A DNA stretch of 64,000 nucleotides, from NCBI RefSeq assembly GCF_014243395.1, contig NZ_JACLCP010000001.1, forward strand, positions 1,054,001-1,118,000, given 5' to 3'. The notes below the pieces were generated by a model that was not told the DNA's origin, made no database searches, and was given only the letters and a program-made list of their open reading frames with translations. Position numbers and translations under genes: made by a program. The stretch's first letter is position 1, and the number at the start of each line of letters is the position of its first letter. This document shows, one piece after another, positions 2,582 to 18,301 of the stretch. The stretch comes from Winogradskyella flava (GTDB taxonomy: Bacteria > Bacteroidota > Bacteroidia > Flavobacteriales > Flavobacteriaceae).

Positions 2582-2607
2582 TAATTAAGGGTAAAGTTTT
2601 TAAAGTT

Positions 2608-2671
2608 GTTGGCTGAGGCTCTCTAAGCCAACAAAATTTGATCACCGGTCACTTCGAGAACCTCAGTGACC
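2608..2671. repeat. Two inverted repeats in the gap between the AhpD-like gene and arsS
   Basis: The 95-bp gap holds two perfect 7-bp stems. GTTGGCT (2608-2614) pairs with AGCCAAC (2626-2632), and GGTCACT (2647-2653) pairs with AGTGACC (2665-2671). The second contains GTCACTTCGAG, the opening of the palindromic repeat family also seen near 10161, 42336 and 44356. On the minus strand the first stem is followed by an A/T-rich tract, so it could attenuate transcription into arsS. Confidence 0.6.
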
Positions 2672-2676
2672 GAATG

Positions 2677-3012: not shown

Positions 3013-3145
3013 GTATTTCTATTTATAAATTCTACCAAAAATCAATATAGCACTTTTTGTCGAAGTTAAATCTTAAAGATTACAGAAAATATGAAAAATA
3101 ATTCTGCTTAAAAAGCCTTACTTTTAAATTCGCTTTTTTGCTACT

Positions 3146-3937
3146 ATGAAGAATTGGATAGAACTTTTATCAGAGTTTAAAGAAAAACGTCAGCCTGTGG
3201 CTTTGGTTACAGTTACCAAATGTTCAGGATCGGCACCTTGTGTGGTATCTTCTCGCATGATAGTCACCGAGGATAAATCTATCTATGGTACTATAGGAGG
3301 CGGTAAGCTCGAGTATAAAGCTATTGATGAGTCCATCTTGGCTTTAAAGGAAAATAGAATTATTGAATCATCATACACCTTAGGGCCAGACTTTGCACAG
3401 TGCTGTGGTGGTGTGGTAGAATTTATAATAGAACCCATGAATCAATCTCCAGAATTGCATCTTTTTGGTGCTGGACATATAGGTACAGAAATTGCCAATT
3501 TATTAGTGAATACACCTTTTAAAGTTAAGCTTATTGATTCGAGACCTCATTGGTTTTCGGAATTTGATATTCATGAAAGTATCGAGCAATGCCAAGTCAA
3601 GGAAAACGATTTTAAAACCTTTAGGGATGCTGTAACTTGGGGAAAGAATTGCTATGTTTTAGTGCTCACTCATAATCATGCTATTGATTTTGATATTATT
3701 GCCATGGCGCTTGAAAATGAAACCAAATATTTAGGACTCATAGGCAGTAAAACCAAAAAAGCCCGTTTTAATAATATGCTCATAAAAGAGATGAACATTA
3801 AAGAGGGCATGGACAATGTTGTTTGCCCAATAGGTTTACCAATAGGCGGTGATACGCCAAAAGAAATTGCCATTAGTGTTGTAGCACAATTACTCCAAGT
3901 GCATTATAATTCTACAGTTTCTGCTGATGAGGAATAA
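3146..3937 (+). CDS. xdhC: XdhC family molybdenum enzyme maturation factor
   Basis: A 263-residue XdhC/CoxI protein. The N-terminal XdhC domain has CSGSAPC near residue 26 and QCCGG at 85-89; the C-terminal Rossmann domain starts with LHLFGAGHIG (104-113) and ends with the PIGLPIGGDTPKEIA signature. XdhC proteins bind sulfurated molybdenum cofactor and insert it into xanthine dehydrogenase; here xdhAB lie close by on the other strand (6374-10118). It is the first gene of a three-gene plus-strand operon, its end overlapping the next gene by 11 bp. Molybdenum cofactor synthesis genes themselves are not in the window. Confidence 0.93.
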   Translation: MKNWIELLSEFKEKRQPVALVTVTKCSGSAPCVVSSRMIVTEDKSIYGTIGGGKLEYKAIDESILALKENRIIESSYTLGPDFAQCCGGVVEFIIEPMNQSPELHLFGAGHIGTEIANLLVNTPFKVKLIDSRPHWFSEFDIHESIEQCQVKENDFKTFRDAVTWGKNCYVLVLTHNHAIDFDIIAMALENETKYLGLIGSKTKKARFNNMLIKEMNIKEGMDNVVCPIGLPIGGDTPKEIAISVVAQLLQVHYNSTVSADEE

Positions 3938-4934
3938 TAGATTTATCATTGATAGATTAACTGCGCTTTGGGCTTTAAACGAATCTGGTTTAGGTGGTTT
4001 TTTACATGTATTTAATACACCTTTTACAGGATTGATTGTAGGTGGTATTGCCATCTTATTAATAAGCTTAATCGCCTATTATGCTGAAAATAAATGGCAA
4101 GCAATATTAAAAGCGCTTTTTATTGTGCTCATTATAAAAATGGCAGTAAGTCCGTATTCACCTTTTGGAGCATATGTGGCTGTAAGTTTCCAGGCTATTT
4201 TTGGGGCGCTTTTGTTTTCAAAATTTTCATGGAAAGGGATAACTATAATGGTGTTAGGTATGGTGACGTTTTTAGAATCGGCACTTCAAAAACTATTGAT
4301 ATTGACCATTGTTTACGGAACAGAACTTTGGGAAGCTATTAATCTTTATGGGCTTTGGGTTCAGAAAAAGTTGAATTTCATTTCTGATACATCGACATCC
4401 ACATTTTTGATTTCGCTGTATTTAGCGGTTTATGGAGTTTGTGGTTTGTTGGCAGGTATTTTTATTAAGAACATGATTAAAATTATTTCCGAAAAAGAGG
4501 AGGTTGATTTTTATTTAGAGTCCAATGTAAATGCGATTGAACGAGAAAATAACAAAACAGCTTTTAAGACTAAAGTCATTTGGATATGGTTGATTACGGT
4601 GACAATAATCGTTTTAGCATTTTCAGTTTTTGGAGGGAATTTATTTGGATGGCAAAAAGGTATTTACATCTTGTTAAGAAGCTTTTTGATATTGATGCTC
4701 TGGTATTTGGTTTTAGGACCATTTTTATTAAAATTGGTCCGTAACTATCTAAGCAAGAGAGAATCGCAGTACAAGGAAGATATCACCAATGCCATGGACT
4801 TATTTCCATATTTTAGAAGGATTCTATCCCACACTTGGCAAGATACAAAGCAGCTAAAAGGCTACACGCGTTTTAAGTATTTTATGGCAAATAGTATTTC
4901 TAATTGTATTCATTTTAAGTTGAAGTCTGAGTGA
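3927..4934 (+). CDS. Unidentified multi-pass membrane protein in the XdhC operon
   Basis: A 335-residue integral membrane protein that I do not recognise. About seven hydrophobic segments are visible, roughly residues 33-52, 60-78, 82-98, 103-128, 158-180, 215-238 and 245-270. A charged cytosolic loop lies near 180-215 and a soluble basic tail from about 275. It overlaps xdhC by 11 bp and the next gene by 4 bp (GTGA), so the three proteins are made together. The glycine-rich fourth segment faintly recalls substrate-binding subunits of vitamin transporters, but that is a guess. A role in molybdate, cofactor or purine transport for the xanthine dehydrogenase system is inferred from context only. 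Confidence 0.72.
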   Translation: MRNNRFIIDRLTALWALNESGLGGFLHVFNTPFTGLIVGGIAILLISLIAYYAENKWQAILKALFIVLIIKMAVSPYSPFGAYVAVSFQAIFGALLFSKFSWKGITIMVLGMVTFLESALQKLLILTIVYGTELWEAINLYGLWVQKKLNFISDTSTSTFLISLYLAVYGVCGLLAGIFIKNMIKIISEKEEVDFYLESNVNAIERENNKTAFKTKVIWIWLITVTIIVLAFSVFGGNLFGWQKGIYILLRSFLILMLWYLVLGPFLLKLVRNYLSKRESQYKEDITNAMDLFPYFRRILSHTWQDTKQLKGYTRFKYFMANSISNCIHFKLKSE

Positions 4935-5440
4935 TCTATATTCTAACTGGAGACATACGAACAGGTAAGACCACAGCGCTTTTAAATTGGGTTAACACTT
5001 CGGCAATGCGCAGTGGAACAGGAAGAAAAGATGTTGATGGCTTACTATGTCCAGATGGTGAAAATGGAAAACGTTATTTTCTGAAAATAAAATCTCAAAA
5101 GGAAATTGAACTTGAGGTTGCATTAGAATCTGAAAAAGTGATATCGGTAGGTCCTTTTTACTTTTTGGAATCAGCTTTTGAAACTGCAAATAACTATTTG
5201 ATAGAGACTGCTAGGGAAAAAGACTTTCAATATATGATTATTGATGAATTAGGAAAACTTGAATTGAAAAATAAAGGACTTCATGATGCGGCTAAAACCT
5301 CGATTGCTCAGTTTATGTTTAATGAAAATAAGCATCTGATTTTAGTGGTCCGTGAATCTTTGTTTGAGGATATTATTAATCATTATACGATTTCTGAATA
5401 TTCTGTTTTGGGAATAGAGGACTTGGAAAACTTAAAGTAA
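4931..5440 (+). CDS. THEP1-type nucleoside-triphosphatase (NTPase_1 family)
   Basis: A 169-residue P-loop NTPase. Walker A is GDIRTGKTT (residues 7-15) and Walker B is MIIDELGKLE (about 106-115), the arrangement of the THEP1/DUF265 family, whose members hydrolyse NTPs slowly and have no firmly known role. The start is a GTG that overlaps the stop of the membrane protein gene (GTGA), a translational-coupling arrangement. Co-occurrence with xdhC suggests a function in molybdenum cofactor or purine metabolism; this is inference. The gene converges on the minus-strand gene ending at 5445 with only 4 bp between them. Confidence 0.85.
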   Translation: MIYILTGDIRTGKTTALLNWVNTSAMRSGTGRKDVDGLLCPDGENGKRYFLKIKSQKEIELEVALESEKVISVGPFYFLESAFETANNYLIETAREKDFQYMIIDELGKLELKNKGLHDAAKTSIAQFMFNENKHLILVVRESLFEDIINHYTISEYSVLGIEDLENLK

Positions 5441-5444
5441 GTTT

Positions 5445-5825
5445 TTACCCAAAAAATGTCTCACTCAACGCATAATAAATTGCCATTAAAGCAGAAAAAA
5501 TGGCGCTTCCCAAAAAGCGCCATTTCAGTTTGAAACGATTTTGAATAATGTAATTCGCAATAAACGAAATCAAAATATTGGCCAGAAATGACCAGAATGC
5601 AATCACCAATAGATTCCAACCAATAGCTTCAAACTGACCAGAAAATAATTTGATAAATAACAAGTGCCTGGCTATCCAAAGCGGATTAAAATAGAGTATG
5701 GCCAATATAGTTTTGGCCAATGTTGCTCGAATACCTTTTAAGAATTGCGTCTTTTTAACGATCCAGTCAAAATAATTAGGTATTTCAAAAGCATAAATAG
5801 TAGCGCCAACGATCACCATCCCCAA
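5445..5825 (-). CDS. Small membrane protein of unknown function, start uncertain
   Basis: With the TTG start at 5825 this is a 126-residue hydrophobic protein with about four membrane segments and no family I can name with certainty. The same frame stays open upstream to 5939 and adds a protein-like stretch (…ILRGALIYSAGDTIAALLL…) that completes a first membrane helix, so the real protein is probably about 150-164 residues. That extension contains no ATG or GTG; ATT at 5904-5906 and ATC at 5931-5933 are the only near-cognate starts. The order GD-x-IA, YF-x-WI-x-KK and the later NYIIQN…WRFL pattern is faintly like Mpv17/PMP22 proteins. A perfect 11-bp hairpin lies inside the gene at 5498-5525. 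Confidence 0.62.
   Translation of the reverse strand: MGMVIVGATIYAFEIPNYFDWIVKKTQFLKGIRATLAKTILAILYFNPLWIARHLLFIKLFSGQFEAIGWNLLVIAFWSFLANILISFIANYIIQNRFKLKWRFLGSAIFSALMAIYYALSETFFG
5498..5525. repeat. Perfect 11-bp inverted repeat inside a coding region
   Basis: AAATGGCGCTT (5498-5508) and AAGCGCCATTT (5515-5525) form a perfect stem with a 6-nt loop. It is GC-rich for the region and lies in the 3' part of the minus-strand membrane protein gene, about 60 bp beyond the stop of the converging NTPase gene. It may limit read-through of plus-strand transcripts, but there is no T-run after it. Confidence 0.6.
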
Positions 5826-5939
5826 TAATCGTGTCCAGGAAAACTCATGAAGTAAAAGTGCGGCAATAGTATCGCCAGCACTATAAATTAGCGCACCTCT
5901 GAGAATGTTTTGTGTTTTGTAGTGTAGTGCGATAAAACT

Positions 5940-6359
5940 TTATTTGTTGTATAATTCTTCAATTATGGAGTAATTTCCATTGACAAAATGTTCTAAATAC
6001 TTTAAGGCCTTATCGAAATTAATAGACCAAACATCATCAACTACCATTTTTTCTTTTTCGCCTAATAATCCAAATAGTACGTTAACACGTTTGGGTCGAT
6101 TATACCACAATGAGAATTCTAGTGCTTTGTTTTTATCATAATTTGCAGTAAAGCAAAAACTTTTTTTATTCTCAAGACAAGTGAAATCTAATGATGGACT
6201 ATAATAAATAACATCTTGATTCATTGAGTCTAAAAATTCCAACTTTTCAATCCAAGGATAATCTTTAGCGATTTTTAAAACTTCATCACCAGAAATGGGA
6301 TTATTTCTGTATTCAATATTTGGTTTATCAGGATGGCAAATAGAATATTTAAATGTCAT
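5940..6359 (-). CDS. Hypothetical protein, 139 residues
   Basis: I do not recognise this protein. It has no signal peptide or membrane segment and looks like a small soluble cytoplasmic protein. It is rich in aromatic and charged residues, with two cysteines near 61 and 69. It lies 14 bp downstream of xdhB in the same direction and probably shares its transcript. Its stop codon (5940-5942) is directly followed, in the same frame, by the open extension of the next membrane protein gene, an unusual junction. Confidence 0.7.
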   Translation of the reverse strand: MTFKYSICHPDKPNIEYRNNPISGDEVLKIAKDYPWIEKLEFLDSMNQDVIYYSPSLDFTCLENKKSFCFTANYDKNKALEFSLWYNRPKRVNVLFGLLGEKEKMVVDDVWSINFDKALKYLEHFVNGNYSIIEELYNK

Positions 6360-6373
6360 TATTTGGTTCGATT

Positions 6374-8716
6374 TTAATGTTGTGATGTATTTGGATTTTC
6401 ATACAAACCCATTAAAACCTTTTCTGGAGTCATTGGCGCATGAAACTTTAAATCATAATTTGAGTTAAAGGCTTTAATGGCATTCTGAATCGCAAAATAG
6501 GCACCAATACCATACATTAATGGTGGTTCGCCAACGGCTTTAGATTTTAAAATCGCTAGCTCATGACCTTGAGTTTCCACAGGAATCACTTCAACCTCTT
6601 TTGGAACAGAAAATATATCAGGAATCTTATAAGTTGATAGAGCATTCGATAGTAAGCGACCTTCATCATTATAAGCAATCTCTTCCATGGTCATCCAACC
6701 AATACCTTGTGCTAAAGCACCTTCAACCTGACCTAGATCAATGCCCTCACTCATACTTTTGCCGTAATCGTGAACTATCTTAACCGAATCAAATTCATAA
6801 GTGCCGCGCATGCAATCAACCGTTGCAGTAATAATGGCTGTTCCGTATACATGATAGGCAAAAGGATGTCCTTTTTCCTTGGTTTTATCAAAGTGAATTT
6901 CTGGTGTGGCGTAATGTGCATTTTCCGTTAAGGCAACACGTTCTAGCATTGCCATGCTTATGAGTTGCGTCCATTCGAACTTGGATTTTTTATCTTCAAT
7001 ATATACAAATTCGTCTTTCAGTGTAATTTGTTCTGCAGTCACCTTAAGATAAGTGGCAGCCACAGTTTTCAACCGTTTTAATAAAACCTTGCAAGCTTTT
7101 AAAGTTGCTTTCCCATTTAAATCAGCCGTAGAACTTGCGGCAGAAGGAGAGGTGTTGGCAACTCTTGTTGTATTGGTAGTTTCAATCTTGATTTTTTCAA
7201 TAGGAATCGAAAATACATCGGCTGCAATCTGCATCATTTTGGTATTCACACCTTGGCCCATTTCAACTGCTGCCGTACTAATTCCTATACTACCATCTAA
7301 ATAAATATGTACTAAAGCACGTGCATGATTCATGGGTGTATTGGTAAATGAGATACCAAAACAAATGGGCATAAGGGCAAGTCCTTTTTTAAATGCTGAA
7401 TTTGAAGCATTAAAATCTTCAACCTCTTTTTCTAAAGCTGCGATATTAAAAGTCGCCGTTGCAGACTTCCAAGTGTTTTTAGCTTCTACTTTTGTAGCAA
7501 TTTGCCCATAGGAAAACACGTCGTTGTCATCTAAAAGATTCGCTTCTTGGATCCGTCTTGTAGGTATGCCAATTTCATGGGCCGCTTTAGCAATTGCAGC
7601 TTCAATAACAAACATGCCTTGTGGCCCTCCAAAGCCTCTAAACGCTGTGTTTGGTGGTAAATTCGTTTTGCAACTGGCTACAGCGACTTCTACATTCGGT
7701 ATATAATAACTATTAGTGGCATGGAATAGTGTACGTTCGGCAACGGCTGGTGACAAGTCGGCTGCTGCCCCAGCATTTTGAAGAAACTCAGCTTCGTAAG
7801 CTAAGATCTTCAAGTCTTTGGATAAGCCAATTTTATAAGAACTTTCATAAGGATGCCGTTTGCCTGTCATTCGTAAGTCGTCATGACGATTTAAAATCAA
7901 CTTCACGGATTGATTTAAATGATAAGCTGCTAAAGCCGCCATAACTGCCCAAGGGGTTGCTTGGTCTTCTTTACCACCAAATCCACCGCCAAGACGTGTT
8001 ACATCCACTTCGATTTTATGCATAGCAATACCCAAAACCTGCGCTACTGTTTTCTGCACGGCTGTTGGACCTTGAGTGGATGATGTAATTTTTATATTAC
8101 CATTTTCTAGTGGTTCGGCATAAGCACCTTGTGCTTCGATGTATAAATGTTCTTGTCCGTTTGAAAAGGTTTCACCTTCAAACACATAATCACAGTCCGC
8201 AAAGGCTTTCTCTGCATCTCCTAAAGAAAATGAACGCGGTTTGGTAATTAAACTATCGTTCTCCTTAGCTTGTTTAGCCGTAGTTATAATTGGAAGTTCT
8301 TCAATGTCTATTTTAACTAGACCTCTTGCTTTTCTGGCTATAAATTCAGATTCAGCAACAATCAATGCAATGGGCATACCCCAAAAATGAACCTCGCGTT
8401 CAGCAAATAAAGGTTCGTCTTTAATGATACCTCCAATCTCGTTTTCACCAGGAATATCTTTATAGGTAAAAATACGCTCAACACCTTCTAAGGCTTGTGC
8501 TTCAGAATAGTCGATAGATTTTATTTTGCCATGTGCTTTTGATGAATCAAAAACAACAGCATGAAACGTACCTTGTCTAACATTTACATCATCTACATAT
8601 AACGATTCACCACGAACATGTGTATAAGAATCCATGTTCTTAATACTCTGTTTTATAGACATGGACACAGCATCTAATTTAGAACCTAAATTGTTATTTG
8701 ATTTGTGCTTATGCAT
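6374..8716 (-). CDS. xdhB: Xanthine dehydrogenase, molybdopterin-binding large subunit
   Basis: A 780-residue molybdenum subunit of the xanthine dehydrogenase family (Rhodobacter-type split enzyme). Visible landmarks are the N-terminal hammerhead domain (about 25-135), GGGFGGKEDQA for cofactor binding, AFRGFGGPQG with the substrate arginine, MGQGVNTKM, and the catalytic glutamate in AVGEPPLMYG at residue 730. With XdhA it would oxidise hypoxanthine and xanthine to urate, passing electrons through FeS and FAD. The ATG at 8716 overlaps the xdhA stop by 8 bp. Other molybdenum hydroxylases share this fold, but adjacency to guanine deaminase and xdhC strongly favours a purine substrate. Confidence 0.93.
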   Translation of the reverse strand: MHKHKSNNNLGSKLDAVSMSIKQSIKNMDSYTHVRGESLYVDDVNVRQGTFHAVVFDSSKAHGKIKSIDYSEAQALEGVERIFTYKDIPGENEIGGIIKDEPLFAEREVHFWGMPIALIVAESEFIARKARGLVKIDIEELPIITTAKQAKENDSLITKPRSFSLGDAEKAFADCDYVFEGETFSNGQEHLYIEAQGAYAEPLENGNIKITSSTQGPTAVQKTVAQVLGIAMHKIEVDVTRLGGGFGGKEDQATPWAVMAALAAYHLNQSVKLILNRHDDLRMTGKRHPYESSYKIGLSKDLKILAYEAEFLQNAGAAADLSPAVAERTLFHATNSYYIPNVEVAVASCKTNLPPNTAFRGFGGPQGMFVIEAAIAKAAHEIGIPTRRIQEANLLDDNDVFSYGQIATKVEAKNTWKSATATFNIAALEKEVEDFNASNSAFKKGLALMPICFGISFTNTPMNHARALVHIYLDGSIGISTAAVEMGQGVNTKMMQIAADVFSIPIEKIKIETTNTTRVANTSPSAASSTADLNGKATLKACKVLLKRLKTVAATYLKVTAEQITLKDEFVYIEDKKSKFEWTQLISMAMLERVALTENAHYATPEIHFDKTKEKGHPFAYHVYGTAIITATVDCMRGTYEFDSVKIVHDYGKSMSEGIDLGQVEGALAQGIGWMTMEEIAYNDEGRLLSNALSTYKIPDIFSVPKEVEVIPVETQGHELAILKSKAVGEPPLMYGIGAYFAIQNAIKAFNSNYDLKFHAPMTPEKVLMGLYENPNTSQH

Positions 8717-10118
8717 GTTCTATGAACTCGTTTAAGGTGAATTGTTTTGGAAATAATTCGGTGAAATGTGCAAAGAACAATTGTCTACCTAATAGACGTT
8801 TGTAATCACTTGTGCCACGAACATCACTAATAGGTAAAATTTCATTTTGAAGCACCTCTTGAGCCTCAAGAATGGTCTTTGAAGTCAAAGGTTTTCCTGT
8901 TAAAAAAGCAGACGTATCTTGTAGATATTTCGGAATAGCAGCTACACCGCCAATAGCGACGTGCGCTTCGGAAATAATATTGTTTTCAACTGAAATACTT
9001 GCGGCTGAATTAACACTTGCAATATCTAGATGCGTACGTTTACAGACTTTTTCGAAATTGAAATAGGTGTTTTGTTTAGGTAGTTTAAGCTGTATATCTT
9101 TCAATAATTCACCATCCTTTAAATCAAAGGTTTTATAACCTTGATAGAAATTCTTGAGAGGTAGATTGCGGTCTTTACCGCCCTGTGTTGTTATACCAAT
9201 ATCACTATTGAGTGCTAAAAAGAAAATGGTCATATCTCCAATAGGTGAGGCATTTACAAAATTGCCACCTAAGGATGCCATATTTCTTATCTGCTCTGAG
9301 GATACTAATTTCAGATGTTTTTTAAGATTAGGAAATATGGTGTTTAGTTCTTTGTGATTCCATAGATCCGAAACCGTGGAGTTAGTACCTATAGTACATA
9401 TTCCATTTTTTATGTTGATACCTTTTAAATAGTCTTTTTCGGCAATAAGATGCACATCATTATCTGCTAAATGATCAGGTTGCTGCACATACAAATCGGT
9501 TCCACCAGAAACGTATTTGCCCTTGGGTTGATCTCTGTCTTTAGTTTCTAATTCCCGAAGTCGTTTAGGTATTGTCGAAAAGTACTCAGGGATAAATTCA
9601 TTTGCAATTAACCAATCGAAAGATCGTTTTTCTTTATTATTTAATTTTTCAACTACTTGATTTGCTGCTTTTTCAATGGCTTTGTAGCCCGTACATCTGC
9701 AGATATTGCCACTAATGGCATCGAGGGCATTGTCGTAGTTTTTATGTGAACTTGATAACGTAAAACCAGTAAGTGCGACCACAAAACCTGGCGTGCAAAA
9801 GCCGCACTGTGTAGCGTAATTCGCTTTCATCGCTTCTTGGATAACGGTTAATTTGTTTTGAAGATTGGTACCTTCAACCGTAACAATATGTTTGCCATGT
9901 GCATTACCTAGAGGTGAAATACAAGAGGTAATACTTTGATACTCGATATAGCCACTCTCTAAAGTACCAACCAAAACTGTACATGCGCCACAATCGCCTT
10001 CACGACATCCTATTTTAGTGCCTGTAAGTCGTTGCTCATAACGTACAAAATCCAATAAGGTCATCCCAGAATGTTCTGAGGTGGTGATGGTTTTGTTATT
10101 TAGGATAAAGGTTATCAA
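8709..10118 (-). CDS. xdhA: Xanthine dehydrogenase, [2Fe-2S]/FAD small subunit
   Basis: A 469-residue subunit. The N-terminal plant-type [2Fe-2S] domain has C38, C43, C46 and C66. The second helical [2Fe-2S] domain has QCGFC (C105, C108) and NICRC (C140, C142). A FAD-binding domain follows, with SGGTDLYV near 204 and NMASLGGNFVNASPIGD near 281, then the CO-dehydrogenase-flavoprotein C-terminal domain. It passes electrons from the molybdenum subunit to NAD or another acceptor. The only usable start is TTG at 10118; the frame closes at a stop 6 bp upstream, so no ATG is possible without losing the domain. It overlaps xdhB by 8 bp and is separated from guaD by a palindromic repeat. Confidence 0.92.
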   Translation of the reverse strand: MITFILNNKTITTSEHSGMTLLDFVRYEQRLTGTKIGCREGDCGACTVLVGTLESGYIEYQSITSCISPLGNAHGKHIVTVEGTNLQNKLTVIQEAMKANYATQCGFCTPGFVVALTGFTLSSSHKNYDNALDAISGNICRCTGYKAIEKAANQVVEKLNNKEKRSFDWLIANEFIPEYFSTIPKRLRELETKDRDQPKGKYVSGGTDLYVQQPDHLADNDVHLIAEKDYLKGINIKNGICTIGTNSTVSDLWNHKELNTIFPNLKKHLKLVSSEQIRNMASLGGNFVNASPIGDMTIFFLALNSDIGITTQGGKDRNLPLKNFYQGYKTFDLKDGELLKDIQLKLPKQNTYFNFEKVCKRTHLDIASVNSAASISVENNIISEAHVAIGGVAAIPKYLQDTSAFLTGKPLTSKTILEAQEVLQNEILPISDVRGTSDYKRLLGRQLFFAHFTELFPKQFTLNEFIEHA

Positions 10119-10160
10119 TAGTAATTAATATATTCTTTTATTTCTAAATTTTTAAAAATT

Positions 10161-10272
10161 TGTCACTTCGAGTGAAATTCCTTTTTTTTTGGAATTTTGT
10201 ATCGAGAAGCTTTTAACCTAAGAGAAGGTTCTCGATACATTTCTCGCTCACTCGAAACACTCGAACTGACAT
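10161..10272. repeat. Dispersed palindromic repeat between guaD and xdhA
   Basis: This 112-bp element occupies most of the gap. It opens with TGTCACTTCGAGTG, continues with TATCGAGAAGC, then the complementary arms GGTTCTCGATACA and CACTCGAACTGACAT. A nested GGAATT/GAATTCC-like stem lies inside. Related elements are at 42336-42501, 44356-44411 and, as a fragment, 2647-2671. It can fold on either strand and could modulate the guaD to xdhA transcript ratio. Confidence 0.75.
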
Positions 10273-10276
10273 ACAT

Positions 10277-10750
10277 TTAATACTCTGTCTTATCTTCTTT
10301 CTTAGTCCATTCGTTAAATGGTTCTAAAGCAATCTCACGAGCTAGTTGCTCGAAAGGAATACTTCGTTTCTCATAAGGTAATGGAATTTCTTTATAGATA
10401 AATTCATCATCGAAACCAATGTTGGCGGCATCAGTTTGGTCGCTTCCATAATACACTTTATTTGGTCGTGCCCAATAAATAGCACCTAAACACATTGGAC
10501 AAGGTTCACAAGACGTATAAATTTCACAACCGTCTAATTGAAATGAATCTAAATTTTTACACGCGTCCCTTATTGCTGTGACTTCAGCATGTGCTGTTGG
10601 ATCATTGGTTGAGGTCACTTTGTTATTACCACGACCTACGATTTTTCCGTCTTTGACGACCACGCATCCAAAAGGCCCTCCTTCATTATTATTCATGCCT
10701 TTTAAAGCTACGTTAACAGCTTCTTTCATGAATTGTTCTTTATCAGTCAT
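10277..10750 (-). CDS. guaD: Guanine deaminase (small cytidine-deaminase-fold type)
   Basis: A 157-residue zinc deaminase closely resembling Bacillus subtilis GuaD along its whole length. The zinc ligands are H54 in TAHAEV with catalytic E56, and C84 and C87 in CEPCPMC. The DDEFIYKEI segment and the C-terminal PFxxW…EY tail typical of GuaD are both present, whereas TadA-type tRNA deaminases lack them. It converts guanine to xanthine, the substrate of the xanthine dehydrogenase encoded immediately downstream on the same strand. ATG at 10750. Confidence 0.93.
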   Translation of the reverse strand: MTDKEQFMKEAVNVALKGMNNNEGGPFGCVVVKDGKIVGRGNNKVTSTNDPTAHAEVTAIRDACKNLDSFQLDGCEIYTSCEPCPMCLGAIYWARPNKVYYGSDQTDAANIGFDDEFIYKEIPLPYEKRSIPFEQLAREIALEPFNEWTKKEDKTEY

Positions 10751-11081: not shown

Positions 11082-13697
11082 TTATTGCTTAATCACTCGA
11101 ATTGTTTTGGTGATGCTATTAACAGTTACCTTAACAAAATAAGTTCCGCTTTGTAGATGGGACATATCTAGTTTGCTATTTAAGCTATGAGGAGTAGTTG
11201 ATAATACGTTTTGCCCTAACATATTATACATGACTACGGTATCAATATTTTGCTTTGCGTTTAATGTTAAGGTGTTTTTTACAGGGTTTGGGTAGTAAGT
11301 AAATGCTGAATTACTAAACTCATCAATAGATAAGGTAGCACAACTTACTATAGCCTCCCAACCTGTTTCCTGAACTGAACCATCAGAATCAAATACTATA
11401 GTTAAAGCACCCGAGGGATCCGTAGAAGTAAAAGTATCACCAACGCTAAGTATACTAGATGTTACTGGTGTTACATCACCACTACCACTTTCTTCTCCGC
11501 AGAGTGTTTGGGCTAAAACAGGAAAGGTGTTATCTGGGCCATCATATATGGTTAAAAAATCCCAACATCCATCTTGTCCACTTCCACTAGTACTTACCTC
11601 AATATCTACATATGTAAAAGTTATAGAGACGAATTGTCCTGGTGAGTCTGGCAAAATGGTCGTAGAATAGAATTCATTGATAGAATAGTTTCCTGAGCTT
11701 CCGCCAGTGTCTAAAAATATACCGCCACATTCTGGTGGTGTTGGTAAAGTACTAAAAGAGAAAGGCCCTACCCAAGCAGATGTACCATCAGTATCACAAT
11801 CTGCCTGTACAAAAAACTGGTATTGATTGTTGGGTGCTAAACCCGTTGCTGAAAATGATGGCGTTGTAAGCCCTGTAGCAGAGGGTGTTCCTGTTGCGGT
11901 TTCACCAGCTGTAATATCTAGAAATTCTATATTATATAATGTAGCAGAGTCGTTTTCTATCCAATTTAGATCTGCTGAAGTATCCGTAATATTTGATGCG
12001 GATAGATTTGATGGTCGAGGACAAGTTTCTAAAGTCTTAAATGAAATAGGTCCTGACCAAACCGATATATCACCGCCACAATTTGCTCTTACAAAAAAAG
12101 CATAATCATTATCTTGGGTTAGACCAGTAGCTGAGAATGAAGGATTAGTTAAACCAGACGCTGTTGGTATACCTGTTGCTGTTTCACCAGCAGTGATATT
12201 AAGTAATTCTATATCCCATAGAGCAGCAGTTCCATTTTCTGTCCAGCTTAAGTCTGCTTGCAGATCAGTAATGTTATTTGCGGCTAAATCGCTTGGTGGC
12301 AGACAAGATGGTAATTCATCAAAGGCCACATTATCAATAGCGATATCGCCTTCAAACTGGCCTGCACTCGTGCCTCTAAAGGTTATAGAAATGGTTTGAC
12401 CTGCATAAGCAGACAAATCGATCACAGCGAATTCCCAACCTATAGTTGCACTAGTTTGTTGTTCACCAGATAATGAAAACACGTTATCCGTATCATTAAC
12501 CAAAACATCTAAAGTACCTATATCACTGCCAAACATATGGTAATTAAAAGTTAAACTAGGTGAAGTTAAATTGCTTAAATCTACTAGTGGCGAAACTAAA
12601 TCCGTAATGTCTCCAGCAACACCAGCAGAAGCTTCAGTGTAGAAGTAATTACCAGTAGTTATAGATGGGTCTGGACCTGTATCGCTTGATCCAGTATCTG
12701 TACCTGGTGCTGCTTCCCAAAAATAATCGCCACCAGAAGCAGACCAACAATTTCCTTCTGTAAAAGCATTATTTGCTGTTGTAAAGGTTTCAAAATCTTC
12801 ACTGTAGGGTGCTGTAAAAGCCGCACAAAACGTCGTAAAGTTAAAAGGTCCTGCCCAGTCCGATACACCGTCTGTACCACAATCTGCTCTTACCAAAAAC
12901 GCATAGTCGTTATCTTGATTTAAACCAATAGCAGAGAATGATGGATTGTTTAAACCAGTCGTAGTTGGTGTTCCTGTTGCAGTTTCACCATTAGTAATAT
13001 CTAATAGTTCTATGTCCCAAAGTATAGCCGTTCCATTTTCTGTCCAAGTTAAATCTGCTGAAGTTTCTGTAATATTTAATGCCGATAAATTACTTGGTGG
13101 AAAACATGCTGTTTCTGTAATTGAGTTAAAACCTATCCAACCTGCATCTGTGTAGGCTTGAGCTGTGCCCACTGGGATAAATAAATCCACAGCGTTAAAG
13201 CTGCTTCCAAAAGTAGTTGTTCCTATGGTAGCTGGTGTGGTACCTACGGCTATAACTGTTGCCAAAGGATTCGCTCCAAAGCCACTCTGTCCTATAGATA
13301 TCATAGTGCTTGGAATGGTAATATCTGTTAGGCTATTAAATCTAAAAGCTCTTTGAGCAATAGTTTCTAAACCTTCTGGAAGGTCAATAGTGGTGAGTTG
13401 ATTTTGATCAAAAGCAAAGTCGCCAATGCTTTTTATCGTTGAAGGAAGGTCAACACTTGTAAGATTTGCAATATTAAAAGCATTGTTTCCAATAGAAACT
13501 ACAGTGAATGTATCTGTGCCATCTGTAGCCGTTTCGGGAATCACTAAGTCCGACGAGACACTAGTACCACCTGTAATTTGTACTTCATTAGGATTAGTGG
13601 ACGTAATTGTGTAATCAAGTCCATTATCCGTGAAGGTTTGCGCAAAACTTATTGTAATGCATAGAAAAGTTAATAAAGTAAGTAGTTTTGTTTTCAT
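11082..13697 (-). CDS. Large secreted multidomain protein with type IX secretion sorting domain
   Basis: An 871-residue exported protein. A signal peptide (1-20, SFAQ) is followed by a BspA-like leucine-rich repeat region (about 60-180), a fibronectin type III domain (198-290), a MAM-like domain (298-460), two more FN3 domains (466-555 and 560-650), a CUB-like domain (657-787) and a C-terminal type A sorting domain. The last starts at YYPNPV (801), contains MLGQNV and ends in IRVIKQ. The architecture is that of a cell-surface adhesin or matrix protein; no catalytic motif is visible. The three FN3 copies are near repeats at the DNA level. The promoter region carries three copies of the motif that also precedes the operon at 15817, so it is probably controlled by the adjacent AraC-type regulator. 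Confidence 0.88.
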   Translation of the reverse strand: MKTKLLTLLTFLCITISFAQTFTDNGLDYTITSTNPNEVQITGGTSVSSDLVIPETATDGTDTFTVVSIGNNAFNIANLTSVDLPSTIKSIGDFAFDQNQLTTIDLPEGLETIAQRAFRFNSLTDITIPSTMISIGQSGFGANPLATVIAVGTTPATIGTTTFGSSFNAVDLFIPVGTAQAYTDAGWIGFNSITETACFPPSNLSALNITETSADLTWTENGTAILWDIELLDITNGETATGTPTTTGLNNPSFSAIGLNQDNDYAFLVRADCGTDGVSDWAGPFNFTTFCAAFTAPYSEDFETFTTANNAFTEGNCWSASGGDYFWEAAPGTDTGSSDTGPDPSITTGNYFYTEASAGVAGDITDLVSPLVDLSNLTSPSLTFNYHMFGSDIGTLDVLVNDTDNVFSLSGEQQTSATIGWEFAVIDLSAYAGQTISITFRGTSAGQFEGDIAIDNVAFDELPSCLPPSDLAANNITDLQADLSWTENGTAALWDIELLNITAGETATGIPTASGLTNPSFSATGLTQDNDYAFFVRANCGGDISVWSGPISFKTLETCPRPSNLSASNITDTSADLNWIENDSATLYNIEFLDITAGETATGTPSATGLTTPSFSATGLAPNNQYQFFVQADCDTDGTSAWVGPFSFSTLPTPPECGGIFLDTGGSSGNYSINEFYSTTILPDSPGQFVSITFTYVDIEVSTSGSGQDGCWDFLTIYDGPDNTFPVLAQTLCGEESGSGDVTPVTSSILSVGDTFTSTDPSGALTIVFDSDGSVQETGWEAIVSCATLSIDEFSNSAFTYYPNPVKNTLTLNAKQNIDTVVMYNMLGQNVLSTTPHSLNSKLDMSHLQSGTYFVKVTVNSITKTIRVIKQ

Positions 13698-13711: not shown

Positions 13712-13734
13712 CAATTATATAATTGACAAAATTA
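13712..13734 (-). promoter_or_regulatory. Probable promoter of the secreted-protein gene
   Basis: On the minus strand the -7 box TAATTTTG (13734-13727) matches the Bacteroidota TAnnTTTG consensus exactly and lies 29 bp before the ATG. Immediately downstream is a perfect 14-bp palindrome CAATTATATAATTG (13712-13725), at or just past the expected transcription start. I see no good -33 TTG, as expected for an activator-dependent promoter. Confidence 0.6.
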
Positions 13735-13778
13735 GAATTGACGGCTATTGAGAGTTAAGATTAATACGGCAATATCTT

Positions 13779-13836
13779 GTACTTTTCCGAAATTAGATGT
13801 TACTTTTCCGTCACGGATATTAATTTTCCGACATCA
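13779..13836 (-). promoter_or_regulatory. Array of three putative regulator-binding sites
   Basis: Read on the minus strand, three related sites follow each other at exactly 20-bp spacing: TGATGTCGGAAAATTAAT (13836-13819), CCGTGACGGAAAAGTAAC (13816-13799) and CTAATTTCGGAAAAGTAC (13796-13779). The shared core is (T/A)CGGAAAA followed by GTA(A)C. The same motif recurs on the plus strand at 15643-15723. The array sits upstream of the promoter at 13712-13734 and between the secreted-protein gene and the divergent AraC-type regulator, so regulation of both is plausible. Binding by that regulator is inference. Confidence 0.7.
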
Positions 13837-13965: not shown

Positions 13966-15627
13966 ATGAAACCCAATACTAAATACGCAAAAAGCGGAGA
14001 GGTGAATATTGCATACCAAGTTTTTGGTTCTGGTGCGATTGATTTGGTATATATCCCTGGATGGATTTCTAATATCGATTTAATGTGGGCTTGCCCAGAG
14101 TTAGTCAATTTTTTAAATGAGTTAGGAAAAATAGCAAGAGTTATTCTATTCGATAAGCGAGGCACAGGTTTGTCTGATCGTGTTTTGGGCTTTCCTACAC
14201 TTGAAGAACGCATGGATGACATCAGAGCAGTAATGGATGCAGTAAATTCGGAAAAAGCAGTTTTGTTTGGGCATTCTGAAGGAGGCTCTGTATCTGCATT
14301 GTTTGCGGCAACGTACCCCAATAGAACCATATCCCTTATTGCTTTTGGAATTTTTGCCAAGCGTATTTATTCTCCTAATTACCCTTGGGCACCAACGAAC
14401 GAAGAACGCCAAAAGGTGTATGACATGATTGAAAAAAGTTGGGGAAGTGGTGATATGAATCTAGAATCATTGGCGCCTTCAAAGGCTAATGATAAGGTAT
14501 TTATGGATTGGCTAGCTAATTATTTTCGCTCTGGAGCTAGTCCTAGTGCCGCGCTAACACTAACAAAAATGAATACCCAAGTAGATATCATTGATATACT
14601 GGGTTCTATAAAAGTACCTACTTTAATACTACAGCGTACCAATGATATTGATGTAAAAATCGAAGAAGGGCGTTTTATAGCAGAGCGTATTCAGGGAGCA
14701 AAACTTGTTGAGCTTGAGGGTAACGACCACTTGTTTTGGGCTGGCAATACCCAAGAGGTTCTAGAGGAGATGAAATCCTTTATTCTTAATGTAAGACCAA
14801 AATTAGTTTATGAAAAACAACTATTTACCATAATTGTTGGACGTTTAATCTCCTTAGAAGCCAATTCTGCATCTTTGCGAAAACATATTAATGCTTGTGT
14901 AAAACGGTTTAGTGGTAACGCAGTTCAATATAACGAGGAAACATTTACTGTTACCTTTAATGGGCCAAGTAAAGCCGTACTTTGTAGCATTGATTTAGTG
15001 GAGATGATTCATAGTTTAAATGGAAAACTAAATATTGGGATACACATTAGAGAGTGTTATGCAGATCATTGTATAAGTAAGGAGACAGAGAATTTAGCGA
15101 CATCAATCCTTAAACAATCTCAGCCTAACCAAGTGCTGTTAACACAAACTGTGAAAAACTTATTGATAGGTGTGAACTTGAATTTTGCAATTTTTAATAC
15201 AATTTTTGATGTGGTATCTGGAGACTCTATTTTATTATTTACGGTGAGTAAAAAACATAAACCGAATAAACTTCTCAATGGTGTCGAAAATGATAAAATC
15301 GTCCAATACGATTCGTTCTTAGAAATCGTAGTCCAAGTGATTAACAAGAATTTAAGCAATGAAGAATTTGGTGTGGTAAGCCTTTGTCAAGACATTGGTG
15401 TTAGTGAGAGACAGTTACAACGTAAGCTAAAGGAAATTACTCAAAAGTCTCCTAATCAATTAATTTCATCAATTAGATTAAACCATGCAAAAGAACTTTT
15501 ATTAAGTACCTCTTACACGATTTCTGAAATTGCTTTCAAAACTGGGTTTTCTAATCCTTCTTACTTTTCTAAGTGCTTTAAAAAAGAGTTTAGCATCAAC
15601 CCATCGGACTTAAAACTCAAACAATAG
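13966..15627 (+). CDS. Hybrid regulator: alpha/beta hydrolase, degenerate class III cyclase domain, AraC-type DNA-binding domain
   Basis: A 553-residue protein with three parts. Residues 1-280 are an alpha/beta hydrolase with nucleophile S104 in GHSEGG, probable acid D227 and histidine H255 in NDHLFW, so the triad looks intact. Residues 282-428 match the class III adenylate cyclase fold as usually found behind this hydrolase (FT-x-IVG, FNGPSKAV, GIHIRE, NQVLLTQTVKNLL). The metal-binding aspartates are lost, however: FTDIVGS has become FTIIVGRL, and the GDGF position reads NEET, so it should not make cAMP. Residues 445-553 are an AraC/XylS double helix-turn-helix. The protein probably senses a small molecule and activates the flanking promoters. 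The gene is monocistronic and flanked on both sides by arrays of one motif. Confidence 0.88.
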   Translation: MKPNTKYAKSGEVNIAYQVFGSGAIDLVYIPGWISNIDLMWACPELVNFLNELGKIARVILFDKRGTGLSDRVLGFPTLEERMDDIRAVMDAVNSEKAVLFGHSEGGSVSALFAATYPNRTISLIAFGIFAKRIYSPNYPWAPTNEERQKVYDMIEKSWGSGDMNLESLAPSKANDKVFMDWLANYFRSGASPSAALTLTKMNTQVDIIDILGSIKVPTLILQRTNDIDVKIEEGRFIAERIQGAKLVELEGNDHLFWAGNTQEVLEEMKSFILNVRPKLVYEKQLFTIIVGRLISLEANSASLRKHINACVKRFSGNAVQYNEETFTVTFNGPSKAVLCSIDLVEMIHSLNGKLNIGIHIRECYADHCISKETENLATSILKQSQPNQVLLTQTVKNLLIGVNLNFAIFNTIFDVVSGDSILLFTVSKKHKPNKLLNGVENDKIVQYDSFLEIVVQVINKNLSNEEFGVVSLCQDIGVSERQLQRKLKEITQKSPNQLISSIRLNHAKELLLSTSYTISEIAFKTGFSNPSYFSKCFKKEFSINPSDLKLKQ

Positions 15628-15642: not shown

Positions 15643-15723
15643 CTAATGTCGGAATAGTTACAGTGTAGCTCTTTTAAGCTTTTCTAATGTCGGAAACTTT
15701 CAAGCTTTTGGCGCAATAGTTAC
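15643..15723 (+). promoter_or_regulatory. Second array of putative regulator-binding sites
   Basis: Plus-strand copies of the motif seen at 13779-13836: CTAATGTCGGAATAGTTAC (15643-15661), CTAATGTCGGAAACTTTCA (15684-15702) and the weaker CTTTTGGCGCAATAGTTAC (15705-15723). Spacings are 41 and 21 bp, in step with two helical turns per site; the position between the first two has only a very poor match. The array points toward the promoter at 15747 and the five-gene operon starting at 15817. Confidence 0.7.
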
Positions 15724-15746
15724 AGGTCTGTGGTAAGTACGCACAT

Positions 15747-15754
15747 TATATTTG
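15747..15754 (+). promoter_or_regulatory. Probable -7 promoter box of the cytochrome operon
   Basis: TATATTTG matches the Bacteroidota TAnnTTTG consensus. It starts 24 bp after the last putative operator site and 63 bp before the ATG at 15817 (box end 15754). No convincing -33 TTG is present, so activation by the bound regulator is likely. Confidence 0.55.
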
Positions 15755-15816: not shown

Positions 15817-16185
15817 ATGAAAGCAGGTAAATTAATTATAACAGCATTATTTGCGATTTGTATATATAGTTGCAGTTACGATAGTGAAAGTGACTTAATA
15901 GATGCCGTTGATCCTATTGATCCCGATATCATAGTTACTTATGTCGATAATGTCGAAGCAATAATCCAAAGTGCTTGTATTGGTTGTCATTCTGATCCTC
16001 CAGTAAACGGTGCGCCAGTTCCTTGGGTAACTTATGATCAGGTCAATCAGAGAGCAAATGATATTTTAAATAGAATGAGTCGGCAAAGTGGAGCGCCAGG
16101 GGCAATGCCACCTTCAGGACGATTGCCTCAGTCTACTATAGATATTATGGAGCAGTGGATTGATGATGGAAAACTAGAAAATTGA
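15817..16185 (+). CDS. c-type cytochrome-like lipoprotein
   Basis: A 122-residue exported protein. The signal sequence ends in a lipobox-like IYSC, giving C19 as lipid anchor and predicting an outer- or inner-membrane lipoprotein. A single haem c motif, CIGCH, has C54, C57 and H58; M97 in GAMPPSG is a likely sixth ligand. The compact C-terminal helix (IDIMEQWIDDG) is typical of small class I-type cytochromes. It would carry electrons in the periplasm. It is the first gene of the five-gene operon and follows the operator array and promoter directly. The partner oxidoreductase is not evident in the window. Confidence 0.87.
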   Translation: MKAGKLIITALFAICIYSCSYDSESDLIDAVDPIDPDIIVTYVDNVEAIIQSACIGCHSDPPVNGAPVPWVTYDQVNQRANDILNRMSRQSGAPGAMPPSGRLPQSTIDIMEQWIDDGKLEN

Positions 16186-16210
16186 TAACATTTAGATTAA
16201 AATAATTGAT

Positions 16211-16783
16211 ATGAAGATTATGAAAAAAAATATTAAGCAATTCGTATTGTCCTTAATTGTATTGCTTAGTGCGTCAAGTTTATTGAGCGCTCAAGGCAAA
16301 TACATCGATAAAAAGGGAAAGATCACTTTTGAGGCTTCGGAAGAACTTTTTGAACCTGTAAAGGCAACTAATGCTTCAGTAACGGCAATATTTAATTCTG
16401 AAACAGGCGAAATAGCTGCCCTAGCGCTTATGAAAGGGTTTAGGTTCAAAAATTCTTTAATGGAAGAGCATTTTAACGAGAATTATATTGAATCTGAGAC
16501 TTATCCGAAAGCCACTTTTAAAGGCAAATTAAAAGATTTTGATTTCTCGAAAATAACTGAAAATAATACCGAAGTAATTGTAAATGGGAAAATAGAATTA
16601 CGTGGAAAAGAAAAAGAAGTAAGCACAACTTTAATAGTTAAAAAGTTTGAGGGGTCAATAATCATTCAGGGGTCATTTAAGGTGACTCCTGCTGATTTTG
16701 ATATTGAGATTCCAAGTGTCGTAAAAAATAAAATAGCGAAAGAAATAATTGTTACAGTAGATTTTAATCTCAGTCAAAAATGA
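16211..16783 (+). CDS. YceI family protein
   Basis: A 190-residue exported protein with a signal peptide (to about residue 28, SAQ) and one YceI lipocalin-like domain. The hallmark pattern is visible: F-x-A…LFEPVKATN, the FKNSLMEEHFNENYIESETYPKA segment, then a C-terminal beta strand with VTPADFDIEIP. YceI proteins bind polyisoprenoids or similar lipids in the periplasm and often accompany b- and c-type cytochromes. ATG at 16211 is used; ATG at 16220 is an equally good start. Follows the cytochrome gene by 25 bp and overlaps the next gene by 4 bp. Confidence 0.87.
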   Translation: MKIMKKNIKQFVLSLIVLLSASSLLSAQGKYIDKKGKITFEASEELFEPVKATNASVTAIFNSETGEIAALALMKGFRFKNSLMEEHFNENYIESETYPKATFKGKLKDFDFSKITENNTEVIVNGKIELRGKEKEVSTTLIVKKFEGSIIIQGSFKVTPADFDIEIPSVVKNKIAKEIIVTVDFNLSQK

Positions 16784-17178
16784 AAAGAAAAAAAATAATA
16801 GCATTACTATCTATTTTCGTCCTTATCCTAGTGGCCTTTTTTGTTTATGATTATACCTTTAATAGTAAGCATAGAGATATTGCCAATGAAGAGGCTACTG
16901 TGGTATTATCAGCTGTAAATTTATTTAATGATTTTCAAAAAGATGAAGCTGTAGCTACGACCAAATATCTAGATAAAGTAATAGAAATAAAAGGCTCTGT
17001 AAGTGCAATTGAAGACAATGCCATTGTCTTAAATAATCAAATTCAGGTAGGTTTTAATATTGGAGAAACTCCGAAATTAACAAATGGTACTGCATTGACC
17101 ATTAAAGGAAGATGTGTGGGCTATGATGAGTTACTGGAAATGGTAAAAATTGATCAAGCAACAGTAATAAATAAGTAA
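16780..17178 (+). CDS. OB-fold (tRNA_anti-like) membrane-anchored protein
   Basis: A 132-residue protein with an N-terminal membrane anchor (about 6-24) and a periplasmic OB-fold domain of the tRNA_anti-like family (residues 35-130). Recognisable pieces are KYLDKVIEIKGSVSAIE and TALTIKGRCVGYDELLEMVKID. Members are common in Bacteroidota and have no established function. It overlaps yceI by 4 bp (ATGA) and lies 2 bp before the next gene, so it is tightly co-translated. Confidence 0.8.
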   Translation: MKRKKIIALLSIFVLILVAFFVYDYTFNSKHRDIANEEATVVLSAVNLFNDFQKDEAVATTKYLDKVIEIKGSVSAIEDNAIVLNNQIQVGFNIGETPKLTNGTALTIKGRCVGYDELLEMVKIDQATVINK

Positions 17179-17180
17179 TA

Positions 17181-18026
17181 ATGAAATACATATATCTATT
17201 AATTTTTGTAATTCCAACATTGGTTTTTTCACAAGACGATTTGTTCTCTGAAATAGATGTTACTGTAGAGGAAGACTATAAAAGCGCTGCTTTTAAAGGA
17301 TTAAAAATTGTGAACTTTGAATCCACCAAAATGATATCCAAGAAAGAGCTCTATTTTGTGGTGTCGCATAGATTTGGTTCTATAGAAACAGGTTTCAAAG
17401 ATTTCTTTGGACTGGATCAGGCGGTAACTCGACTAAATTTACTTTATGGGATTACGGATGCTATTAATATAGGTGTGTCAAGAAGTTCGTTTAGGCAAAT
17501 TTATGAGTCTTCTTTAAAGATAAGATTATTAAGAGAGAAAAAAGGAGGTTCGCCATTTACTATCGTTAGCTCTAGTAATATTTTAATTAATACATCTTTG
17601 GATGAGGATATACTACCTGGTTTGGAGTTTAAGAATAGATTGGGTTATACTACGCAGTTATTGATCTCCAAAAAGTTTAACGAGAACTTCTCATTACAAT
17701 TAATGCCTACATTTTTTCATGATAATTATGTAGATGTGGACGAACAGCATAATTCCCAATACGTTATTGGTTTTGGAGGGAGACATAAATTGACAAAGCG
17801 TCTATCTTTTAATTTTGATTATGGATTGCACTTAAACAGAGCAGAAAGTTCTCCATTTGTAAATCCACTTTCTATTGGTGTGGATATTGAAACAGGAGGA
17901 CATGTATTTCAGTTGCATTTTACCAATGCGCAACCGATGAATACTAATGGGTTCTTGGGACAAGGTACAGGTGACTGGAGCGATGGTAATATTTTCTTTG
18001 GATTTAATTTGTCGAGAGTATTTTAA
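17181..18026 (+). CDS. DUF5777 family outer-membrane beta-barrel protein
   Basis: A 281-residue exported protein with a signal peptide (1-18, VFSQ). The rest is alternating beta-strand sequence ending in FFGFNLSRVF, a C-terminal aromatic as expected for an outer-membrane barrel. FKGLKIVNFESTKMISKKELYFVVSHRFG and GLDQAVTRLNLLYGITDAINIG match DUF5777 proteins, which recur beside YceI and small c-type cytochromes in Bacteroidota. The function is unknown; it may be the outer-membrane partner of this operon. Its stop overlaps the next start in TAATG. Confidence 0.84.
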   Translation: MKYIYLLIFVIPTLVFSQDDLFSEIDVTVEEDYKSAAFKGLKIVNFESTKMISKKELYFVVSHRFGSIETGFKDFFGLDQAVTRLNLLYGITDAINIGVSRSSFRQIYESSLKIRLLREKKGGSPFTIVSSSNILINTSLDEDILPGLEFKNRLGYTTQLLISKKFNENFSLQLMPTFFHDNYVDVDEQHNSQYVIGFGGRHKLTKRLSFNFDYGLHLNRAESSPFVNPLSIGVDIETGGHVFQLHFTNAQPMNTNGFLGQGTGDWSDGNIFFGFNLSRVF

Positions 18027-18301
18027 TGAATTTAAAAGAACAAATAATTTCAAACGCCAGAATAGAGGTACAACAAAGCTTTTGTGATTTTTGCTCAATA
18101 GATATTAAAAAGGCACTTCAAGAAATTGAGGCAATAAAGAACATTAGATTATACCCAAAGGACTCAATTGTAACGTTTAATTTTACTAGTCCGCACAAAC
18201 TATCCACGGCCTTAAATACTTTGTCGGCTATAGGCTATTGTGAGAAAGGTGAAGTCGTGGATAACAAAAATGTAGACATAAGATATTGTAATTGTAAATA
18301 A
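18026..18301 (+). CDS. Small HMA-like metal-binding protein
   Basis: A 91-residue protein following the beta-alpha-beta-beta-alpha-beta pattern of heavy-metal-associated domains. A CDFC pair (C20, C23) occupies the loop before the first helix, LSAIGY the second helix end, and there is a further C72 and a terminal CNC (C88, C90). The usual GM before the CxxC is replaced by SF, so it is a divergent member. It probably binds copper or another thiophilic metal in the cytoplasm. The ATG overlaps the previous stop (TAATG). Last gene of the operon, followed by a terminator. Confidence 0.72.
   Translation: MNLKEQIISNARIEVQQSFCDFCSIDIKKALQEIEAIKNIRLYPKDSIVTFNFTSPHKLSTALNTLSAIGYCEKGEVVDNKNVDIRYCNCK

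Follow-up and report, generated by a model that had tools for sequence, protein, structure and literature searches.

A gene of Winogradskyella flava encodes an α/β-hydrolase, a cyclase-like domain and an AraC/XylS DNA-binding domain in one chain, which raises the question of whether a second-messenger enzyme has here become a regulator that passes its signal straight to DNA. The gene lies in a window of 64,000 nucleotides, the whole stretch of DNA that was analysed. The evidence assembled below favours, with a probability of about three in four, a one-component transcription activator that senses through its hydrolase domain and derives from a hydrolase–cyclase of the LipJ type.

Domain architecture of the regulator

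The open reading frame list and its translation give a protein of 553 residues with an ATG start, exactly the three-part protein of the preliminary description.

13966..15627, + strand, regulator gene encoding three domains (open reading frame, Pfam, NCBIfam)
13966..14790, + strand, α/β-hydrolase domain, residues 1–275, triad S104-D227-H255 (Pfam, alignment)
14812..15252, + strand, degenerate class III nucleotide cyclase domain, residues 283–429, with R293 and E325 at the metal aspartate positions D1 and D2 and S380 at the transition-state arginine position (alignment, PDB search, model)
15310..15615, + strand, AraC/XylS DNA-binding domain, residues 449–550 (Pfam, NCBIfam, sequence search)

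Pfam assigns residues 27–255 to Abhydrolase_1 (E 9.6e-13) and residues 473–549 to HTH_18 (E 1.5e-23), so that the protein ends, as had been proposed, in the C-terminal double helix-turn-helix (HTH) of the AraC/XylS family. The NCBIfam model of the LipJ lipase/adenylate cyclase (NF058673) covers residues 3–407 (E 1.4e-72), with a score of 244.9 bits that falls far short of its equivalog cut-off of 800 bits. The first two domains thus resemble Rv1900c/LipJ (PDB entries 1ybt and 1ybu) and stand in the same order, whereas the LipJ model, of 449 positions, contains no DNA-binding part. An AlphaFold2 model of the full protein, based on an alignment of 64 sequences, has a mean pLDDT of 83.7. A chance reading frame or a misjoining of genes is ruled out by the identical domain order of 64 further sequences, all complete except L039, which is cut at its contig edge. 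No description of the three-domain architecture was found in the literature searched, the coverage of which was partial.

These homologues come from the 80 top-ranking of 552 relatives, which lie in 78 loci (numbered with the prefix L); the counts given here therefore describe the nearer part of the family. Sixty-two loci are full-length, the excluded ones being fragments (L069, L071–L074) or matches to the AraC region (L076–L086). Adding the window's sequence and a second copy from each of L031 and L050 gives a set of 65 sequences, which without L039 becomes the alignment of 64, mostly from Bacteroidota. Two members from assemblies labelled Thalassovita (L016) and Rickettsiales (L025) nest among the Bacteroidota in the tree, which points to mis-binned contigs or transfer. 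Three of the excluded loci were viewed separately (L079:4587-5747, L081:4617-5804 and L084:2497-3603); their proteins consist of an SCO4226-like domain (PF14026), a middle stretch and an AraC domain, and perhaps represent another sensor on a similar cassette. The middle stretch of L079 has a weak match to the cyclase family (13.9 bits, below the cut-off).

The hydrolase domain

The preliminary description had offered S104, D227 and H255 as candidates for the catalytic triad, and every one of the 64 aligned sequences, that of the window protein included, has all three residues. They are also kept in L087 and L088, two relatives without a cyclase domain, and in L134–L136, which carry intact cyclases. 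Across the alignment, 93 of the residues 1–273 are invariant, and 66, 76 and 69 of these positions are shared with L134, L135 and L136, respectively. The fold is that of an α/β-hydrolase (Foldseek TM of ~0.8, normalised by target), with the triad complete and in order. Its neighbours by sequence and fold include RsbQ and strigolactone-type receptors, although bromoperoxidases and esterases rank above these in the fold search.

RsbQ, KAI2 and D14 likewise use a hydrolase fold with a complete triad in signalling, and they act on separate partner proteins; the output of the window protein is instead fused to the hydrolase. KAI2 and RsbQ are treated as α/β-hydrolase signal proteins in PMC3548789.

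A class III cyclase fold without its active site

A Pfam search of the middle domain of the window protein returned no cyclase match, the only weak hit, ALS_ss_C, lying below the cut-off and being taken as chance. Searched alone against PDB sequences, the domain matches 1ybt (E 6.6e-8). Its AlphaFold2 model, built for the domain alone, has a mean pLDDT of 87.7, and Foldseek places 1ybt and 1ybu, both structures of Rv1900c, at the top (best E 9.4e-13). VIA-align, applied to the middle-domain model only, superposes it on Ma1120 and Rv1900c with Z ~20 and r.m.s.d. ~2.5 over ~148 residues. On the strength of these structural matches to 1ybt, 1ybu and Ma1120, the modelled domain is of the class III cyclase fold. 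A domain unrelated to cyclases is ruled out by the same matches, by the sequence match to 1ybt and by the homologue L061, whose middle domain exceeds the Pfam cyclase cut-off (45.7 versus 21.9 bits). The preliminary description had aligned the domain with the cyclase that follows hydrolases of this type and had made its case depend on a structural match to class III cyclases; both the LipJ model match (residues 3–407) and the structural searches bear it out.

Alignment with intact cyclases puts R293 at the position of the first metal aspartate (LFTIIVGR in place of LxTVLFTD). The counterpart of GDGF is E324-E325-T326-F327, with E325 at the second aspartate, and S380 occupies the position of the transition-state arginine. 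The two metal aspartates and the transition-state arginine that characterize class III enzymes are thus all absent, and the metal ligands of this domain are lost. That loss had been claimed before and stands; the residues named for it do not, since the aspartate position lies outside the proposed 'FTIIVG' and the proposed 'NEET' is off by one residue. By comparison, the hydrolase–cyclases L134 (from a genome of the phylum), L135 (Sinorhizobium) and L136 (Paraburkholderia) keep D, GDG and R. L134 and the two annotated plasmid relatives L135 and L136 have, unlike the window protein, no HTH after the cyclase; mis-binning of L134 is possible because its genome is only 74% complete. The other cyclase-like proteins of Bacteroidetes treated in PMC4886424 retain their metal aspartates. 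A cyclase-only frame of 300 residues was seen at L122.

Among the 64 aligned sequences, aspartate occurs at the first site in three and at the second in six, and the pair is missing in 63. The exception is L061, from a Chitinophagales assembly, which keeps FTDIADST and GDGF and has lysine for the transition-state arginine. L062 (Saprospiraceae) retains the first aspartate and the arginine, its GDG being gone. The segment aligned with residues 293–317 is 37 residues long in L061 and L062, 32 in two others and 23–27 in 60 of the 64. The degenerate domain of the window protein would accordingly be expected from its sequence to have no catalytic activity.

Conservation differs among the three domains, with a mean majority-residue frequency (65 sequences) of 0.84 in the hydrolase, 0.74 in the AraC domain and 0.50 in the cyclase. 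Where computable (25 of 31 pairs printed), dN/dS is 0.02–0.09 in the hydrolase, 0.04–0.26 in the cyclase and 0.02–0.09 in the AraC domain. By these measures, constraint on the cyclase domain is relaxed, yet the domain is not in decay and remains under purifying selection. Thirteen of its positions are conserved in at least 58 of 64 sequences; because eight of them are identical in L061 and L134–L136, the conserved positions look like a retained scaffold.

Distribution and order of events

A survey of Bacteroidota for the three-domain order, suggested in the preliminary description, was made with the LipJ model at E 1e-30; it gave matches in seven of 296 genomes of the phylum, five of which have open frames long enough for three domains. 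When 296 genomes of the window's order were searched with the protein, the only full-length match among those listed was that of the window itself; two genomes had matches without a cyclase. One genome (G079) has two cyclase-less copies of equal score and identity, 8.6 kb apart.

In a tree of the hydrolase domain with L134–L136 as outgroups, L061 branches first and L062 second, followed by the other 62 sequences. The forks setting off L061 and L062 have support of 93/79 and 99/99, in a tree whose outgroup branches are long and meet, whose bootstrap had not quite settled and whose root is drawn at the midpoint; both L061 and L062 are metagenome-assembled. L061 already possesses the AraC domain and, downstream, two strong units of the probable operator described below (24.1 and 21.4 bits), so the AraC fusion likely preceded a stepwise loss of the cyclase site. 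Two loci of the window's own family, L087 and L088, encode a hydrolase (60 and 57% identical) joined directly to AraC. Their proteins fall outside the 64 in the hydrolase tree, with weak support (90/24), and may either have lost the cyclase domain or have arisen by a separate fusion.

A parallel conversion has likely taken place in Alphaproteobacteria, as judged from the sequence of L137 (Phyllobacterium plasmid, 1486-3048), in which a related hydrolase is followed by a degenerate cyclase (R, PEK and H at the catalytic positions) and a DNA-binding domain. Its output domain is of the LuxR/GerE type and its triad serine is replaced by alanine, whereas the window protein has an AraC domain and a complete triad. 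L146 (Rhizobium, H30) is a second LuxR-type candidate, whose annotated protein ends early.

Probable tandem operator units

Words containing TGTCGGA are strongly enriched directly 3′ of the regulator genes, and TGTCGGAA occurs in 17 of 65 downstream 300-bp regions, against 0.5 expected. A 21-bp weight matrix trained on the downstream regions (consensus ATTTGTCGGAATTGTTATAGT) finds units of the form TGTCGGAATTGTTATAGT in 40 of 65 downstream 400-bp regions, with 101 sites in the gene direction and three in the opposite one; the upstream 400 bp contain nine. Site density per kb per strand is 2.0 downstream, 0.23 in the rest of the loci and 0.15 in shuffles. Adjacent units are most often spaced by 21 bp (30 cases), and arrays usually comprise two to four units. 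The other 25 downstream regions, that of L062 included, have no site within 400 bp. In the window, the units lie on both sides of the regulator gene.

15644..15664, + strand, probable operator unit TAATGTCGGAATAGTTACAGT, 22.1 bits (weight matrix)
15685..15705, + strand, probable operator unit TAATGTCGGAAACTTTCAAGC, 16.3 bits (weight matrix)
15706..15726, + strand, probable operator unit TTTTGGCGCAATAGTTACAGG, 16.2 bits, with a −7 box 20 bp further on (weight matrix)
13816..13836, − strand, probable operator unit TGATGTCGGAAAATTAATATC, 14.8 bits, directed towards the divergent gene (weight matrix)
13796..13816, − strand, probable operator unit CCGTGACGGAAAAGTAACATC, 13.6 bits (weight matrix)
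13775..13795, − strand, probable operator unit TAATTTCGGAAAAGTACAAGA, 13.8 bits (weight matrix)
13754..13774, − strand, fourth unit TATTGCCGTATTAATCTTAAC, weak (5.3 bits, under the scan threshold), in the 21-bp register, 19 bp before a −7 box (sequence inspection)

Matrices trained on random halves of the set and applied to the other halves (ten times, 12 bits) gave 344 forward and two reverse sites, with 188 of 330 region tests positive; the controls gave four and 19 sites upstream and two in reversed sequence, in a test that is not fully independent because random halves contain close relatives. Of four non-window three-domain loci scanned, L118 is identical to L046, and L119 to L045, so neither was taken as a new case; the other two, L117 and L120, are from species outside the training set and both carry operator units.

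Across the 10 contigs of the 3.85-Mb genome, a compound pattern made from the window's sites has no occurrence other than those flanking the regulator on its two sides, with zero and one matches in the reversed control; as the pattern was designed on these very sites, only its absence elsewhere is informative. A genome-wide regulon sought with a loose two-unit pattern (up to two mismatches) was rejected: the 58 and 51 matches were outnumbered by 109 and 108 in the reversed control, so only the single exact match, at the window locus, was used. Lone units of at least 11.5 bits in the window (+ strand, 125, 52587 and 59885; − strand, 53912, 50755 and 11730) are isolated and were taken as chance.

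The 21-bp arrays are the probable operator of the regulator. A direct-repeat operator beside a promoter is a mark of the AraC/XylS family that is present here by sequence evidence only. The arrangement resembles that of XylS at Pm in having a direct-repeat operator, two boxes per unit and a C-terminal double HTH; direct repeats of two boxes have been reported at Pm (PMC5481539). The two systems differ in the sensor, an effector-binding N-terminal domain in XylS and a hydrolase with pseudocyclase here, where the units are of 21 bp.

Upstream of the regulator, several Aquimarina loci (L019, L020 and L065 among them) have a repeated motif like GTCTACATAATGTATAC ... CGTATACACTTTGTA. This motif was set aside as a candidate for the regulator's operator, since L017 has a similar one in addition to a downstream TGTCGG array; GTCTACATAATGTATAC may belong to the TPR protein encoded upstream. 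A TPR family protein is found nearby in 24 of 63 loci, and that of L015 has a weak C-terminal HTH match.

Predicted promoters at a fixed distance

The −7 consensus of flavobacteria is given as TAnnTTTG in PMC9723704, and it was not used in building the operator matrix. Of 42 arrays, 18 have an exact −7 box 19 or 20 bp past their last unit; in shuffles, the number with such a box anywhere at 15–30 bp averages 0.42 and never exceeds 3. Boxes matching five of six positions at 18–21 bp (all at 19 or 20) are found in 32 of 40 arrays, compared with 0–3 of 40 at eight shifted offsets. Both flanks of the window's regulator follow this layout.

15747..15754, + strand, predicted −7 box TATATTTG of the downstream genes (TAnnTTTG match, 20 bp after the last unit)
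13727..13734, − strand, predicted −7 box TAATTTTG of the divergent gene (TAnnTTTG match, 19 bp after the weak fourth unit)

As predicted from these positions, the unit-to-box layout is that expected of an activator placed against the −33 region. Because the units stand at fixed spacing against the promoter, we infer activation rather than repression.

Genes behind the probable operator

The operator arrays and −7 boxes in the window face both flanking transcription units.

11082..13697, − strand, predicted target 1, an 871-residue BspA-type leucine-rich repeat (LRR)/MAM/fn3 protein with a type IX secretion sorting domain (domain search)
15817..18301, + strand, predicted target 2, five same-direction genes (open reading frames, Pfam)

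The second unit encodes a cytochrome-like lipoprotein (Pfam match below the cut-off, CxxCH seen by eye), YceI, a tRNA_anti-like protein, a DUF5777 β-barrel and an HMA protein. The targets at this locus would be the divergent gene for the LRR surface protein and the downstream cytochrome, YceI and DUF5777 genes. Elsewhere in the window, at 3146-10750, a purine-oxidation-like cluster was seen by eye (XdhC-like, molybdenum hydroxylase subunits and guanine-deaminase-like).

Thirty-six of the 40 loci with operator units have the following listed gene on the same strand, and three (L017, L037 and L070) have it on the opposite one; L061 ends there with no next gene listed. YceI and DUF5777 families are near the regulator in 13 of 63 loci, mostly downstream, and LRR proteins occur at the window locus and L056. 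A Pvc16-type gene is present in L011, L036, L038 and L042–L044 (Pvc16_N in a Pfam run on L044), and in L042–L044 the contractile-injection-system-like genes are preceded by an operator unit with an exact −7 box 19 bp after it. Sheath- and tube-like genes follow the Pvc16-type gene in L036 and L042–L044, by eye. CsgE and CsgG, of curli-type export, are encoded downstream in L018, and glutamine synthetase and a glutaminase that carries EF-hand and ankyrin repeats stand behind the operator in L026 and L063 (Pfam on L026). A protein resembling an ammonium transporter was also seen by eye in both. The targets vary so much from species to species that no shared physiological role emerges; a single sensor seems to be wired to different local targets.

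Mechanism and alternative readings

In the proposed mechanism, the hydrolase domain would bind, and perhaps hydrolyse, a small ester- or lactone-like signal. The degenerate cyclase, presumed no longer to make cAMP, would serve as a scaffold or dimer interface, as its fold and conserved scaffold residues suggest. The AraC domain would bind the tandem 21-bp units against the neighbouring promoters and recruit RNA polymerase. The tree and its intermediates point to an origin in a LipJ-type hydrolase–cyclase that gained an AraC domain and then lost the cyclase active site stepwise. The earlier proposal of a second-messenger enzyme turned one-component regulator thus gains support from the branching order of L061, L062 and the inactive-site members, and from the operator and promoter arrays.

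The sensor might instead be the pseudocyclase, with a retained nucleotide pocket reading ATP, GTP or a cyclic nucleotide and the hydrolase as an accessory. The kept fold and purifying selection are consistent with such a role, as are other matches in the host genome, two for the class III cyclase family and six for the cNMP-binding family. We nevertheless regard it as unlikely: this is the least conserved of the three domains, eight of its 13 conserved positions are the scaffold-like ones shared with L061 and L134–L136, and L087 and L088 combine hydrolase and AraC without it. Far less probable again is that a cyclic nucleotide is still made through a non-canonical site, the AraC part being secondary. 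The FTDIADST and GDGF of L061 are in keeping with residual cyclase activity, and are opposed by arginine, glutamate and serine at the three catalytic positions of the window protein, by the missing aspartate pair in 63 of 64 sequences and by the stretch after D1, which measures 37 residues in L061 and L062 and 23–27 in 60 of the 64.

The activator reading is compatible with a working hydrolase whose substrate is the signal and whose hydrolysis drives or ends the switch, as has been proposed for strigolactone- and karrikin-type receptors. The presence of the triad in every aligned sequence and in L087, L088 and L134–L136 argues for it, as do RsbQ and the strigolactone-type receptors among the neighbours; the higher rank of bromoperoxidases and esterases in the fold search and the alanine in L137, by which one protein of the wider group dispenses with catalysis, argue against it, and we hold it to be somewhat short of an even chance. 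A bolder picture, which we consider rather doubtful, is that of a hormone-receptor-like switch, in which a catalytically competent hydrolase would perceive by hydrolysis one conserved ester or lactone signal shared across Bacteroidota and relay it through a fossil cyclase dimer to DNA; L061 would then be a living intermediate, cyclase and transcription factor in one chain.

Implications

In relatives, the operator is followed by genes for contractile injection systems, curli-type export, adhesin-like surface proteins and glutamine metabolism, among others. The hydrolase sensor is strongly conserved, and the operator arrays could serve directly as reporters in a search for its ligand. The series of intact, half-lost and lost active sites may record a second-messenger enzyme becoming a direct transcription factor, and because this series is readable and probable operators and promoters have been identified, each step of the conversion is testable.
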